NCBI GenBank assembly: GCA_001941075.1
Contig: MSHH01000062.1
Location: 1 to 41,168 of the forward strand
Source of the DNA: Oscillospiraceae bacterium Zagget6
GTDB lineage: Bacteria > Bacillota > Clostridia > Oscillospirales > Oscillospiraceae
Length of the DNA stretch: 41,168 bases
Direction: 5' to 3'
Positions within the stretch are counted from its first letter, which is position 1; each line of letters opens with the position of its first letter. Positions 11,557-28,372 of this stretch are shown here, one piece after another. A program made the position numbers and the translations under genes. The notes under the pieces were generated by a model that was not told the origin of the DNA, searched no databases, and was given only the letters and a program-made list of their open reading frames with translations.

Positions 11557-11647
11557 TGGCGCAGAAGGAGGGATTTGAACCCTCGCGACGGTCTCCCGCC
11601 CTACACCCTTAGCAGGGGCGCCTCTTCGGCCACTTGAGTACTTCTGC
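11557..11647 (-). tRNA. tRNA-Ser(GCT)
   Basis: This 91-nt class II tRNA on the minus strand starts GCAGAAG, pairing with CTTCTGC at the acceptor. It has GCT in the anticodon loop (CTGCTAA), a long variable arm, GGTTCAAATCC for the T-arm and an encoded CCA. It is read after tRNA-Ser(TGA) from the same promoter. Its 3' end faces the integrase fragment and is the likely attachment target of the element. Confidence 0.95.
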
Positions 11648-11696: not shown

Positions 11697-11785
11697 TGGC
11701 GGAGAGAGTGGGATTCGAACCCACGGCCCCTTCCAGGGTCACCAGTTTTCAAGACTGGCTCCTTAAACCGCTCGGACATCTCTCC
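11697..11785 (-). tRNA. tRNA-Ser(TGA)
   Basis: This 89-nt class II tRNA on the minus strand starts GGAGAGA, paired at the 3' acceptor. The anticodon loop CTTGAAA gives TGA, with a long variable arm, GGTTCGAATCC T-arm and encoded CCA. It is the first gene of a two-tRNA serine transcript, 49 bases before tRNA-Ser(GCT). Confidence 0.95.
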
Positions 11786-25715: not shown

Positions 25716-26324
25716 ATGTTTTACTATCTTTCCGGCACTGTGGCCCACATCGCCCCCTTTTTGGCGGTCATCGACTGCGGCGGGGTGGGCTACGCCTGCA
25801 AAACCACCAACTACACCCTGGGGACCATCCAGAAGGGCGAACAGGCCAAGCTGTTCACCTATCTATCGGTAAAGGAGGATGCGGTAGACCTGTATGGGTT
25901 CTCCACCCAGGAGGAGCTGAACCTGTTTCAGCTGCTGATTTCCGTCTCCGGCGTGGGACCGAAGGCGGCGCTCTCCATCCTCTCCTCCTCCACCCCCTCC
26001 AATCTGGCGCTGAGCATCATCACCGGCGACGTGAAAACCCTGACTGCCGCCCAAGGCGTAGGCAAAAAAATCGCCCAGCGCATTGTGCTGGAGCTGAAGG
26101 ACAAGCTGGCAAAGGAGCAGGGCGTTTCCTTCGAGAACACCTCTCCCCTGCCCAGCGCTTCCGGGACGGTCATCCCGGAGGACAAAGCGGGAGAGGCCGG
26201 GGCTGCCCTGGCCGTGCTGGGCTACAGCCAGAGCGAGATCAACAAGGCGTTGAAGGGCATCGACATGGCCTCCCTGACCCTGGAGGAGGTCATCAAGCAG
26301 GCACTGGCGCGCATGATGCAGTAA
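25716..26324 (+). CDS. ruvA: Holliday junction branch migration protein RuvA
   Basis: The 202-residue protein has an N-terminal OB domain (Y-Y-L-S-G-T-V onward), two helix-hairpin-helix motifs (V-S-G-V-G-P-K-A-A and A-Q-G-V-G-K-K-I-A) and a C-terminal RuvB-binding domain after a flexible linker. The tetramer holds the junction while RuvB pumps DNA. GAGGGAGG precedes the ATG at 25716; the frame opens at 25656 inside ruvC. Second gene of ruvCAB. Confidence 0.95.
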
Positions 26325-26337
26325 AGGCGGTGACAGC

Positions 26338-27402
26338 ATGGCCATCAACAACGAAATGGAGCGCAATTTCGACGAAACCGAGGGATACGGCCAGCCGCTG
26401 GTGACCTCCTCCTTTACCAGCGGGGACGAGAGCGAATACTCCCTGCGGCCCAAAACCCTTTCGGAATACATCGGCCAGCAGAAGGCCAAGGAAAATCTGG
26501 ACGTGTTCATTCAGGCGGCGAAGCTGCGGGGGGAGCCGCTGGACCACGTGCTGCTCTACGGCCCGCCGGGTCTGGGCAAAACCACCCTGGCCGGTATCAT
26601 CGCCAACGAGATGGGGGTCAACATCCGCATCACCTCCGGCCCCGCCATGGAAAAGCCGGGGGACCTGGTGGCGCTGCTGACCAACCTGGCGGAGAACGAC
26701 ATCCTCTTTGTGGACGAGATTCACCGGATGAACCGGACCATCGAGGAGATCCTCTACCCCGCCATGGAGGACTACGCCGTGGACATCATCATCGGCAAAG
26801 GTCCCAGCGCCAACTCCATCCGGCTGACCCTGCCCCGGTTCACCCTCATCGGGGCCACCACCCGTGCCGGTTCCCTGTCCGCCCCTCTGCGGGACCGCTT
26901 TGGCGTCAACCTGCGGCTGGAGCTGTACTCCCCAGAGGAGCTGTGCTTCATCGTCAAGCGTTCCGCCGGTATCCTGGACGTTCCCATCGAGGAGAGCGGC
27001 GCCATGGAGATTGCCCGGCGCAGCCGGGGGACCCCGCGCATCGCCAACCGGATGCTCCGGCGGGTGCGGGACTTCGCCCAGGTGCGGGCAGGCGGCGTCA
27101 TCACCCAAAAGGTGGCCAGCGAAGCGCTGACCGCCCTGGAGGTGGACGACCTGGGCCTGGACAACATCGACCGGCGGATGCTGCGGGCCATCATCGAGTT
27201 CTACAACGGCGGCCCTGTGGGACTGGACACCCTCGCCGCCACCATCAACGAGGACACCGTCACCCTGGAGGATATGTACGAGCCGTATCTGTTGCAGCAG
27301 GGCTTCCTGACCCGCACCCCAAGGGGCCGCTGCGTGACCCAGCGGGCCTATGACCACCTGCACATTCCCTTTGAGGGGCAGCCTCAGCAAAGTCTGTATT
27401 AA
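26338..27402 (+). CDS. ruvB: Holliday junction branch migration ATPase RuvB
   Basis: The 354-residue AAA+ motor has Walker [10 protein letters not shown], Walker B D-E-I-H, sensor G-A-T-T-R and arginine finger region L-R-D-R-F-G, then the winged-helix DNA-binding C-terminus ending P-R-G-R. Length is normal. Thirteen bases after ruvA. A long stem-loop array follows its stop. Confidence 0.96.
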
Positions 27403-27410
27403 TGCGTTCG

Positions 27411-27536
27411 GAACAAAGCCATAAGCATAGAAAGGCACGGCCTTTCATGCCTTTCGGCTTTGTTCAGTGCAAGGTTTTTACGCCGATAAGCGAAAAACCT
27501 TGCACCCTCCGTTAGCACAGCAAGCTGTGCCAACGG
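27411..27536. repeat. Three consecutive stem-loops after ruvB
   Basis: H1: GAACAAAGCC (27411-27420) pairs with 27456-27465, enclosing a second stem GAAAGGCA/TGCCTTTC (27430-27437/27448-27455). H2: a perfect 13-bp stem, 27467-27479 with 27493-27505. H3: 12 bp with one mismatch, 27509-27520 with 27525-27536. They are nearly back to back. H1 may serve as the ruvCAB terminator, but it lacks a clean T tail. Confidence 0.75.
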
Positions 27537-27549
27537 AAATACGCATTGT

Positions 27550-27658
27550 AACAACGGCTGCATTTCAAGAAACCAGCGTTAAACTGCTGGTTTCTTGAAA
27601 TCGCACGGCCTTTGCCGTGCGAATAAACCGCATAGCGGTTTATTTAACAGTCGTTGTT
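27550..27658. repeat. Cloverleaf-like palindromic element
   Basis: An outer stem (27550-27560 with 27648-27658, one mismatch) encloses three perfect hairpins with almost no spacing: 16 bp (27562-27577/27586-27601), 8 bp (27602-27609/27614-27621) and 10 bp (27622-27631/27635-27644). The element contains no convincing ORF. The 11-mer GCACGGCCTTT of the second hairpin also occurs in H1 at 27435, so alternative pairing is possible. Confidence 0.75.
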
Positions 27659-27660
27659 TT

Positions 27661-27746
27661 AAGCGTTTTCTCCCGACATTTGTCCGTTTTCGGCGAAATT
27701 CTGTACATCACTTGTAATTTTTCCGTATTATTTCGAGAAAACGCTT
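27661..27746. promoter_or_regulatory. 12-bp inverted repeat ending in the sigma-gene promoter
   Basis: AAGCGTTTTCTC (27661-27672) and its exact complement (27735-27746) are 62 bases apart. The right arm overlaps the first two bases of the -35 TTGACA. This could be a looping operator or a long stem. Confidence 0.55.
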
Positions 27747-27772
27747 GACAGGCGCAGGAAAAATGTTATACT
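27745..27772 (+). promoter_or_regulatory. Strong sigma-A promoter of the SigH-like gene
   Basis: TTGACA (27745-27750), 16 bases, TATACT (27767-27772) with an extended TG-N. The predicted start (about 27779) is only a few bases before the first ATG at 27782. Confidence 0.85.
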
Positions 27773-27781
27773 TACTAACGA

Positions 27782-28372
27782 ATGGATCGAAACATGAATG
27801 ATTCTACCTTGACAGATGAAACCCTCTGCCGCCGCGCCGCCCAGGGTGACCAGTCAGCGGAAGAGGCCCTGGCCTTGCGCTATACCCGCCTGGTGCGCGC
27901 CTGCGCCCGTCCCCTGTTCCTGATGGGAGGCGATGGCGAGGACCTGACCCAGGAGGGGATGGTCGGCCTGCTCTCCGCCATTCGGAGCTATGCCCCGGAG
28001 CGGGGCGTCAGTTTCCGTGCCTATGCGGAAACCTGTGTCAAAAACAGAATGATTTCTGCCGTTCGGTCCGCTTCAGGAAAACATCATACCCCGTTGAACG
28101 ATTCTATTCCGATCGAGACTCCCCTTTTTGACGAAAATTGCCACTGCACAGCCGCGCTCTCCGCAACCGACCCGGAGGAGATCCTCATCACCCGAGAAAG
28201 CGTTCAGGAGCGGCTGGGGTCTTTGTTCAGCAAACTGTCGGATTTTGAGGCGGAGATACTCAAGCTGTACCTTTCCGGCCTTTCTTATTCGGAGATCGCA
28301 GACCAGGCCAATCGTCCTGTCAAGTCCGTAGACAACGCCATACAGCGTATCCGGCGCAAGCTGGACGCTTAA
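27782..28372 (+). CDS. SigH-like RNA polymerase sigma factor
   Basis: The 196-residue sigma-70-family protein has region 2 with D-L-T-Q-E-G-M-V-G-L and S-F-R-A-Y-A-E-T-C-V-K-N-R-M, then H-T-P-L-N-D-S-I, and region 4 with L-S-Y-S-E-I-A and R-P-V-K-S-V-D-N-A-I-Q-R. The order and wording resemble SigH/Spo0H, which launches sporulation in Bacillus; dpaAB nearby also marks a spore former. No Shine-Dalgarno precedes ATG 27782 or the in-frame ATG 27794, and the promoter leaves almost no leader. Naming it sigH is likely but unproven, since other small sigma factors share these motifs. Confidence 0.78.
   Translation: MDRNMNDSTLTDETLCRRAAQGDQSAEEALALRYTRLVRACARPLFLMGGDGEDLTQEGMVGLLSAIRSYAPERGVSFRAYAETCVKNRMISAVRSASGKHHTPLNDSIPIETPLFDENCHCTAALSATDPEEILITRESVQERLGSLFSKLSDFEAEILKLYLSGLSYSEIADQANRPVKSVDNAIQRIRRKLDA

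Follow-up and report, generated by a model that had tools for sequence, protein, structure and literature searches.

Prokaryotic MITEs such as Correia, QMITE and BrickBuilt are described in the available part of the source (PMC10969869) as short, noncoding and intergenic, with terminal inverted repeats, target duplication and stable secondary structure, and as presumably mobilised by related IS elements. A described process that also acts on inverted repeats is template switching, which homogenises arms and inverts spacers (available part of PMC8604942) and can maintain stems (available part of PMC8794818). Here we describe a hairpin array beside ruvB in Oscillospiraceae bacterium Zagget6, which is a genuine discrete element at about 27400-27656 of the window (the whole stretch of DNA that was analysed, 41,168 nucleotides). 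It shares the structural properties of Correia, QMITE and BrickBuilt, together with a related IS element that would move it. We consider it highly probable that it is a short, noncoding, non-autonomous IS5-family MITE, moved by an IS5-type transposase and composed of a fused pair, whose hairpins are maintained mainly at the level of DNA. Text searches of the literature, with ISfinder and most subscription papers outside their reach, found no description of this repeat family, which is apparently an undescribed and structurally unusual IS5-type MITE of Flavonifractor-like bacteria.

Table 1. Features of the element and its flanks, in window coordinates
Feature	Position	Strand	Basis
Whole element, TAATGCG...CGTTG (consensus right end CATTA)	27400..27656	+	Alignment with 64 other unique copies; left end overlaps ruvB stop codon
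Left target copy, TGTATTA	27395..27401	+	Flanks; empty site of relatives has TGTTTTA or TGTTTTG once
Right target copy, TGTTTTA	27655..27661	+	Flanks and empty site; one base apart from left copy
Cloverleaf A closing stem, 5' side, with 27541-27548; start of left terminal inverted repeat	27400..27407	+	Fold; 98.0% of A2 alignment cells paired in the same helix
Hairpin P1	27411..27465	+	Stem search, fold
Hairpin P2	27467..27505	+	Stem search, fold
Hairpin P3	27508..27537	+	Stem search, fold
Cloverleaf A closing stem, 3' side	27541..27548	+	Fold
Cloverleaf B closing stem, 5' side, with 27648-27658	27550..27560	+	Stem search, fold
Hairpin P4	27562..27601	+	Stem search, fold
Hairpin P5	27602..27621	+	Stem search, fold
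Hairpin P6	27622..27644	+	Stem search, fold
Cloverleaf B closing stem, 3' side, with right terminal inverted repeat	27648..27658	+	Stem search, fold

The preliminary description of this DNA had reported a dense array of stems, and every one of them was found again in the window sequence. There are perfect stems of 13 bp (27467-27479/27493-27505), 16 bp (27562-27577/27586-27601), 10 bp (27622-27631/27635-27644) and 9 bp (27601-27609/27614-27622). Two more are less than perfect, one of 14 bp at 93% (27508-27521/27524-27537) and one of 26 nt (27411-27436/27440-27465). An 11-mer said to be common to two hairpins, GCACGGCCTTT, is indeed present at 27435 and 27603. The fold also bore out the closed branched unit that had been drawn from the last four stems; however, the first three hairpins are closed as well (27400-27407 with 27541-27548), so that there are two cloverleafs and not one. 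The span first given for the array, 27411-27658, was slightly too short on the left, since the element begins within the ruvB stop codon, TAA (27400-27402). Two closed groups with six hairpins in all thus occupy 27400-27658, arranged as back-to-back three-hairpin cloverleafs in which each terminal repeat pairs with an internal partner. The minimum free energy of 27400-27670 was -143.6 kcal/mol on the plus strand and -151.0 kcal/mol on the minus strand (z-scores -16.5 and -17.6, with none of 200 shuffles as low), so folding strength is about equal on both strands. The array had been called noncoding, and among ORFs of at least 100 aa only ruvB and an antisense ORF (26293-27438, ending inside the element) touch the window copy; as expected of a MITE, no such ORF lies within this copy. 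The position directly after ruvB would suit an ordinary ruvB terminator region or a decay product, a reading to which we give practically no credence, as no site for an intrinsic terminator (GC-rich stem plus T-run) was found in 27300-27900 and the same structure with fixed ends recurs at many other places.

Flanking the element, as identified by Pfam, are ruvB (26338-27402) and, at 27782-28372, a gene of sigma-70 type. Six same-genus relatives lack the element at the ruvB site, which reads CAGAGTCTGTTTTAAGCG in G019 and similarly in G022, G026 and G031; in the window the last A of the ruvB stop codon comes from the element. Because the site is empty in these relatives and no other fetched copy has the flanks of the window copy, the neighbourhood looks accidental, and the earlier idea of a cruciform element placed beside a cruciform-processing gene was not upheld. 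In G014 (L182) and G027 (L183) the end of ruvB reads CAGCAG(T/A)CGTTGTTTTAA, resembling the right end of the element, and these tails still encode QQSLF and QQTLF; by eye, they are possible scars of element deletion between CAG repeats. A perfect 12-bp inverted repeat, AAGCGTTTTCTC / GAGAAAACGCTT, was seen at window 27661-27672 and 27735-27746, its right arm extending into the promoter-like TTGACA-16-TATACT (27745-27772) of the sigma gene. In the six relatives with the empty site most of the right arm and promoter is preserved, and less of the left arm; the repeat is a possible operator. Two tRNA genes on the minus strand (11560-11647 and 11700-11785) are the only Rfam matches in the window at gathering score.

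A genome-wide search revealed other copies of the element, the lack of which had been named as a sign of chance decay. In the Zagget6 genome most of the element was matched on five other contigs (C40, C61, C9, C53 and C4), on which the copies run end to end, the one on C4 with a deletion; partial matches were found on C29 and C64, and a weak one on C6. Among relatives, 9 of 59 genomes matched, Zagget6 included, all of the same genus. One pattern searched in GTDB contigs gave 67 loci, in the named genera Flavonifractor, Pseudoflavonifractor and Intestinimonas or labelled Oscillospiraceae, Clostridia, Clostridiales, Eubacteriales or uncultured bacterium. When a copy from a GTDB-hit genome was used as the query, 37 of 300 genomes of the same family matched (23 of 106 genera), and an order-wide draw gave 14 of 295, three of them outside the family; two candidates were scored per genome in these searches, so that copy numbers are lower bounds. 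The element is therefore dispersed in many copies, as a MITE should be. End-to-end hits in a profile search over the first 117 loci numbered 89, of which 65 are unique. Carriage by phage was considered, and one pattern had no exact match in IMG/VR.

The terminal inverted repeats expected of a MITE are present in imperfect form (TAATGYSTRCTGAAYAAA), with TAATGCGTACTGAAC on the left and TAATGTCTGCTGAAT on the right, the right end reading CAGCAGACATTA in the alignment of copies. We found that the insertion target is TANNNTA: of 65 copies, 55 have TA before the left NNN and 56 have TA after the right NNN. NNN is duplicated exactly in 49 of the 64 copies with both flanks, compared with 15.3 expected and a maximum of 24 in 2000 shuffles; the remaining 15, the window copy among them, have one mismatch (7), two (5) or all three (3). 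As TA is common to target and ends, the length of the duplication may be anything from 3 to 7 bp. The seam between the two three-hairpin units is itself target-like (CAT-TGNNNYA-ATG) and resembles the junction of two adjacent copies, which led to the idea of a fused pair; the two-cloverleaf element would then have originated as a dimer. Copies adjoining the right end of another copy were found at L097 (a profile hit) and, by eye, at L037 and L028. A possible tie between the seam and the target of the same copy was considered and dropped, as agreement by eye was isolated. Copies lacking one to three of the cloverleaf A hairpins keep both ends recognisable (L007, L031, L054, L083, L084, L088, L091 and L135), and exact NNN repeats occur also in L083, L135 and L156. 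At only 46 bp, the copy in L156 (910-955) still has both ends and repeats TGA exactly, which may make it the smallest form able to move. L153 (1753-1956) carries a highly divergent copy, some 204 bp long, with six hairpins that by eye differ largely in sequence.

Gene context was assessed with a simple custom gene caller, by which 67 of 74 unique copies could be placed (42 between codirectional, 22 between divergent and 3 between convergent genes; the other 7 lie at locus edges). None of the 67 lies wholly within a predicted gene. TANNNTA sites are AT-rich and promoter-like, and copies therefore lie between genes; 151 further TANNNTA sites inside predicted genes carry no copy. A preference for gene orientation was rejected, as the scarcity of convergent copies (3 of 67) is mirrored by that of unoccupied intergenic TANNNTA sites in convergent gaps (39 codirectional, 30 divergent and 11 convergent, n=80). 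Targeting of promoters was rejected too: -35-like boxes were found at 4 and 8 of 63 copies compared with 0.8 after shuffling, yet at 7 and 7 of the 80 unoccupied sites, so that the target word itself explains the enrichment.

To find an autonomous partner, the ends were sought in eight copy-bearing genomes, which pointed to Pseudoflavonifractor phocaeensis An507 (G063). This genome has two end types, TAATGTCTACTGAATAAC and TAATGTCTACTGAACAAC, about 108 bp from seven contig ends, the pattern that a collapsed multi-copy IS would leave. One of these IS ends was matched in 6 of 250 family genomes. At L160 we found a 1561-bp IS with the ends TAATGATTACTGAAC / TAATGTATCCTGAAT, inserted at TA-CGT-TA (TACGTTA) with CGT duplicated. 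Its 477-aa transposase scores 414.8 bits against a cut-off of 275 for NCBIfam IS5_1 (NF033578) and contains the Pfam domains DDE_Tnp_1_2 and DUF772, as an IS5-type DDE transposase should. A second IS, at L162 (1557 bp), has a shorter frame of 388 aa and TATA on both sides, with no exact NNN. In G061 the IS ends, a transposase start (at a contig end, 97% identical to that of L160 over 100 aa) and 37 matches to the element-end pattern occur together in one genome. Related autonomous elements with the same ends are thus represented by L160, L162 and the ends in G063 and G061. Several IS5-group ends in G061 (L171-L174, L197) differ in ends and leaders, which suggests more than one active lineage. 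The element and the IS also have words in common: a terminal 17-mer, TTATTCAGTAGACATTA, in the G063 IS end and in element copies of other genomes, and an 18-mer, CAAGTGCAAGGTTTTTGC, in the L160 transposase leader and in hairpin P2 of the Zagget6 copy L004, both from copies other than the window copy. The P2 word CAAGTGCAAGGTTTTTG(C), or part of it, likewise recurs in the L160 transposase leader.

Such a transposase was not found in the Zagget6 genome (76% complete), nor in 30 of 31 other same-genus genomes, with fragments in G013. A search of eight copy-rich genomes found nothing in seven, including G063, where the collapsed short contigs could explain the miss. Lone left ends in Zagget6 (contig C60) and G002 were considered as autonomous elements, but no transposase was recognised beside either by eye; the former looks like a remnant and the latter like chance. 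From the terminal repeats, the duplicated TANNNTA target and the IS5-family elements with like ends and target, we infer a non-autonomous IS5-type MITE, which would be mobilised in trans by an IS5-type transposase. The copies, the ends with their target duplication and these IS elements also support the earlier reading of the array as a palindromic mobile repeat. A different kind of mobile element, REP/RAYT-like or IS200/IS605-like, with site-specific or single-strand movement and recognition of hairpins, would account for the hairpins adjoining both ends and for the preferred target. The hallmarks of REP/RAYT systems are a RAYT gene and REP-type hairpins. We judge this reading to be very improbable, given the duplicated target, the terminal inverted repeats and the IS5-type DDE transposase encoded by the IS with like ends.

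We then asked how pairing had been kept among the copies. Folded automatically to a consensus, the full set of 65 copies lost most of its stems, since two subgroups do not align properly; unique copies 250-264 bp long were therefore split into subgroups of 45 and 15 rows, the latter being A3, and 44 of the 45 rows of the former were used as A2 (L032 was too divergent). The structure tested was hand-written, with 98 pairs drawn on one copy. In A2 it forms in 95.3% of cells, compared with 92.5% in column shuffles and at most 44.1% when slid. Both sides have changed in 30 of the 98 pairs against 11.4 expected, and covariation is 0.119 against 0.064, a type of score that related rows inflate; none of 500 shuffles reached either value. 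Compensatory change, whose absence had also been named as a mark of decay, is thus present.

Strong covariation is what would be seen if the element were a structured noncoding or leader RNA, its two cloverleafs selected as RNA and spread as a repeat. The copies are intergenic, with 16 of the 67 placed reading the same way as both neighbours, and at six of seven orthologous sites (all but L035/L041) the element, taken together with 20 bp to its left and right, is better conserved than either 300-bp flank, which could reflect selection on the element; both observations would fit an RNA. An RNA is expected to favour G.T on its own strand. However, the non-Watson-Crick cells were 99 G.T and 82 A.C in A2 but 9 and 19 in A3 (totals 108 and 101), and this lack of a consistent strand bias argues against an RNA-only role. 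Both strands fold equally well, no Rfam family matches the element at gathering score (the matches below threshold are weak, nearly all to miRNA models, and none is near its own gathering score), and the terminal repeats and target duplication are those of a mobile element. An RNA role is therefore improbable in our assessment. Of the readings first offered, the mobile repeat was supported, and the structured RNA and the cruciform beside a processing gene were not.

The seven orthologous sites, at which the insertion and its flanks are common to two or three genomes, also revealed loops that had been inverted, at two of the seven. The P3 loop of L137 is inverted over five bases relative to L142 and L157 (GTCCTGC, GCAGGAC), with few other changes; in the weaker case, the P2 loop of L087 is inverted relative to L096 over only two bases (GAGATC, GATCTC). 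By eye, L060/L106 show one compensated change in P2, and L035/L041 two in P4. Over all copies the excess of inverted loop cores is modest (12 pairs of reverse complements compared with 7 complements, five of which are also reverse complements or short symmetric words, and 4 reversals), and we therefore placed weight on the orthologous sites. Template switching in replication is a likely cause of the loop inversions, and fits with both arm homogenisation and spacer inversion.

Together, these results suggest how the fused-pair IS5-type MITE might arise and persist. A transposase from an IS5-family element elsewhere would recognise TAATG...CATTA and insert the element at TANNNTA, duplicating the target, and two adjacent insertions probably became one unit joined at the target-like seam. 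When an arm mutates, template switching in replication would copy the other arm over it, sometimes flipping the loop. It is conceivable, although we think it rather unlikely, that selection acts on the DNA fold of this fused-pair MITE itself, for instance because it is the shape that the transposase or the replication fork handles; what is inherited would then be the structure and not the sequence, with loop flips as a by-product, and the copies would serve as a natural record of template switching in gut bacteria. Any function of the element beyond mobility would be hypothetical. The repeat family of Flavonifractor-like bacteria thereby gains a concrete parent, and orthologous copies with inverted loops would allow template switching to be measured in natural bacterial genomes. 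The findings also carry a warning: strong covariation is frequently accepted as proving that an RNA is functional, yet here it occurs in a palindrome of mobile DNA that shows no strand bias.

In a typical MITE the two terminal repeats pair together in one long hairpin, whereas here each terminal repeat finds its partner inside the element, and two cloverleafs with a total of six inner hairpins result. The element is like the IS5-family IS (NCBIfam NF033578) in its terminal repeats (TAATG...), the TANNNTA target seen at L160, and words in the end and leader; it differs in having no transposase gene, and in a comparison by common words no likeness was seen beyond the ends and part of P2. Its arm homogenisation and spacer inversion are alike to those of template switching between inverted repeats, as described in the available parts of PMC8604942, PMC8794818 and, for E. 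coli quasipalindromes, PMC7202029. The settings in the accessible text of PMC8604942 and PMC8794818 are yeast coding DNA and RNA genes, whereas the setting here is a bacterial MITE.
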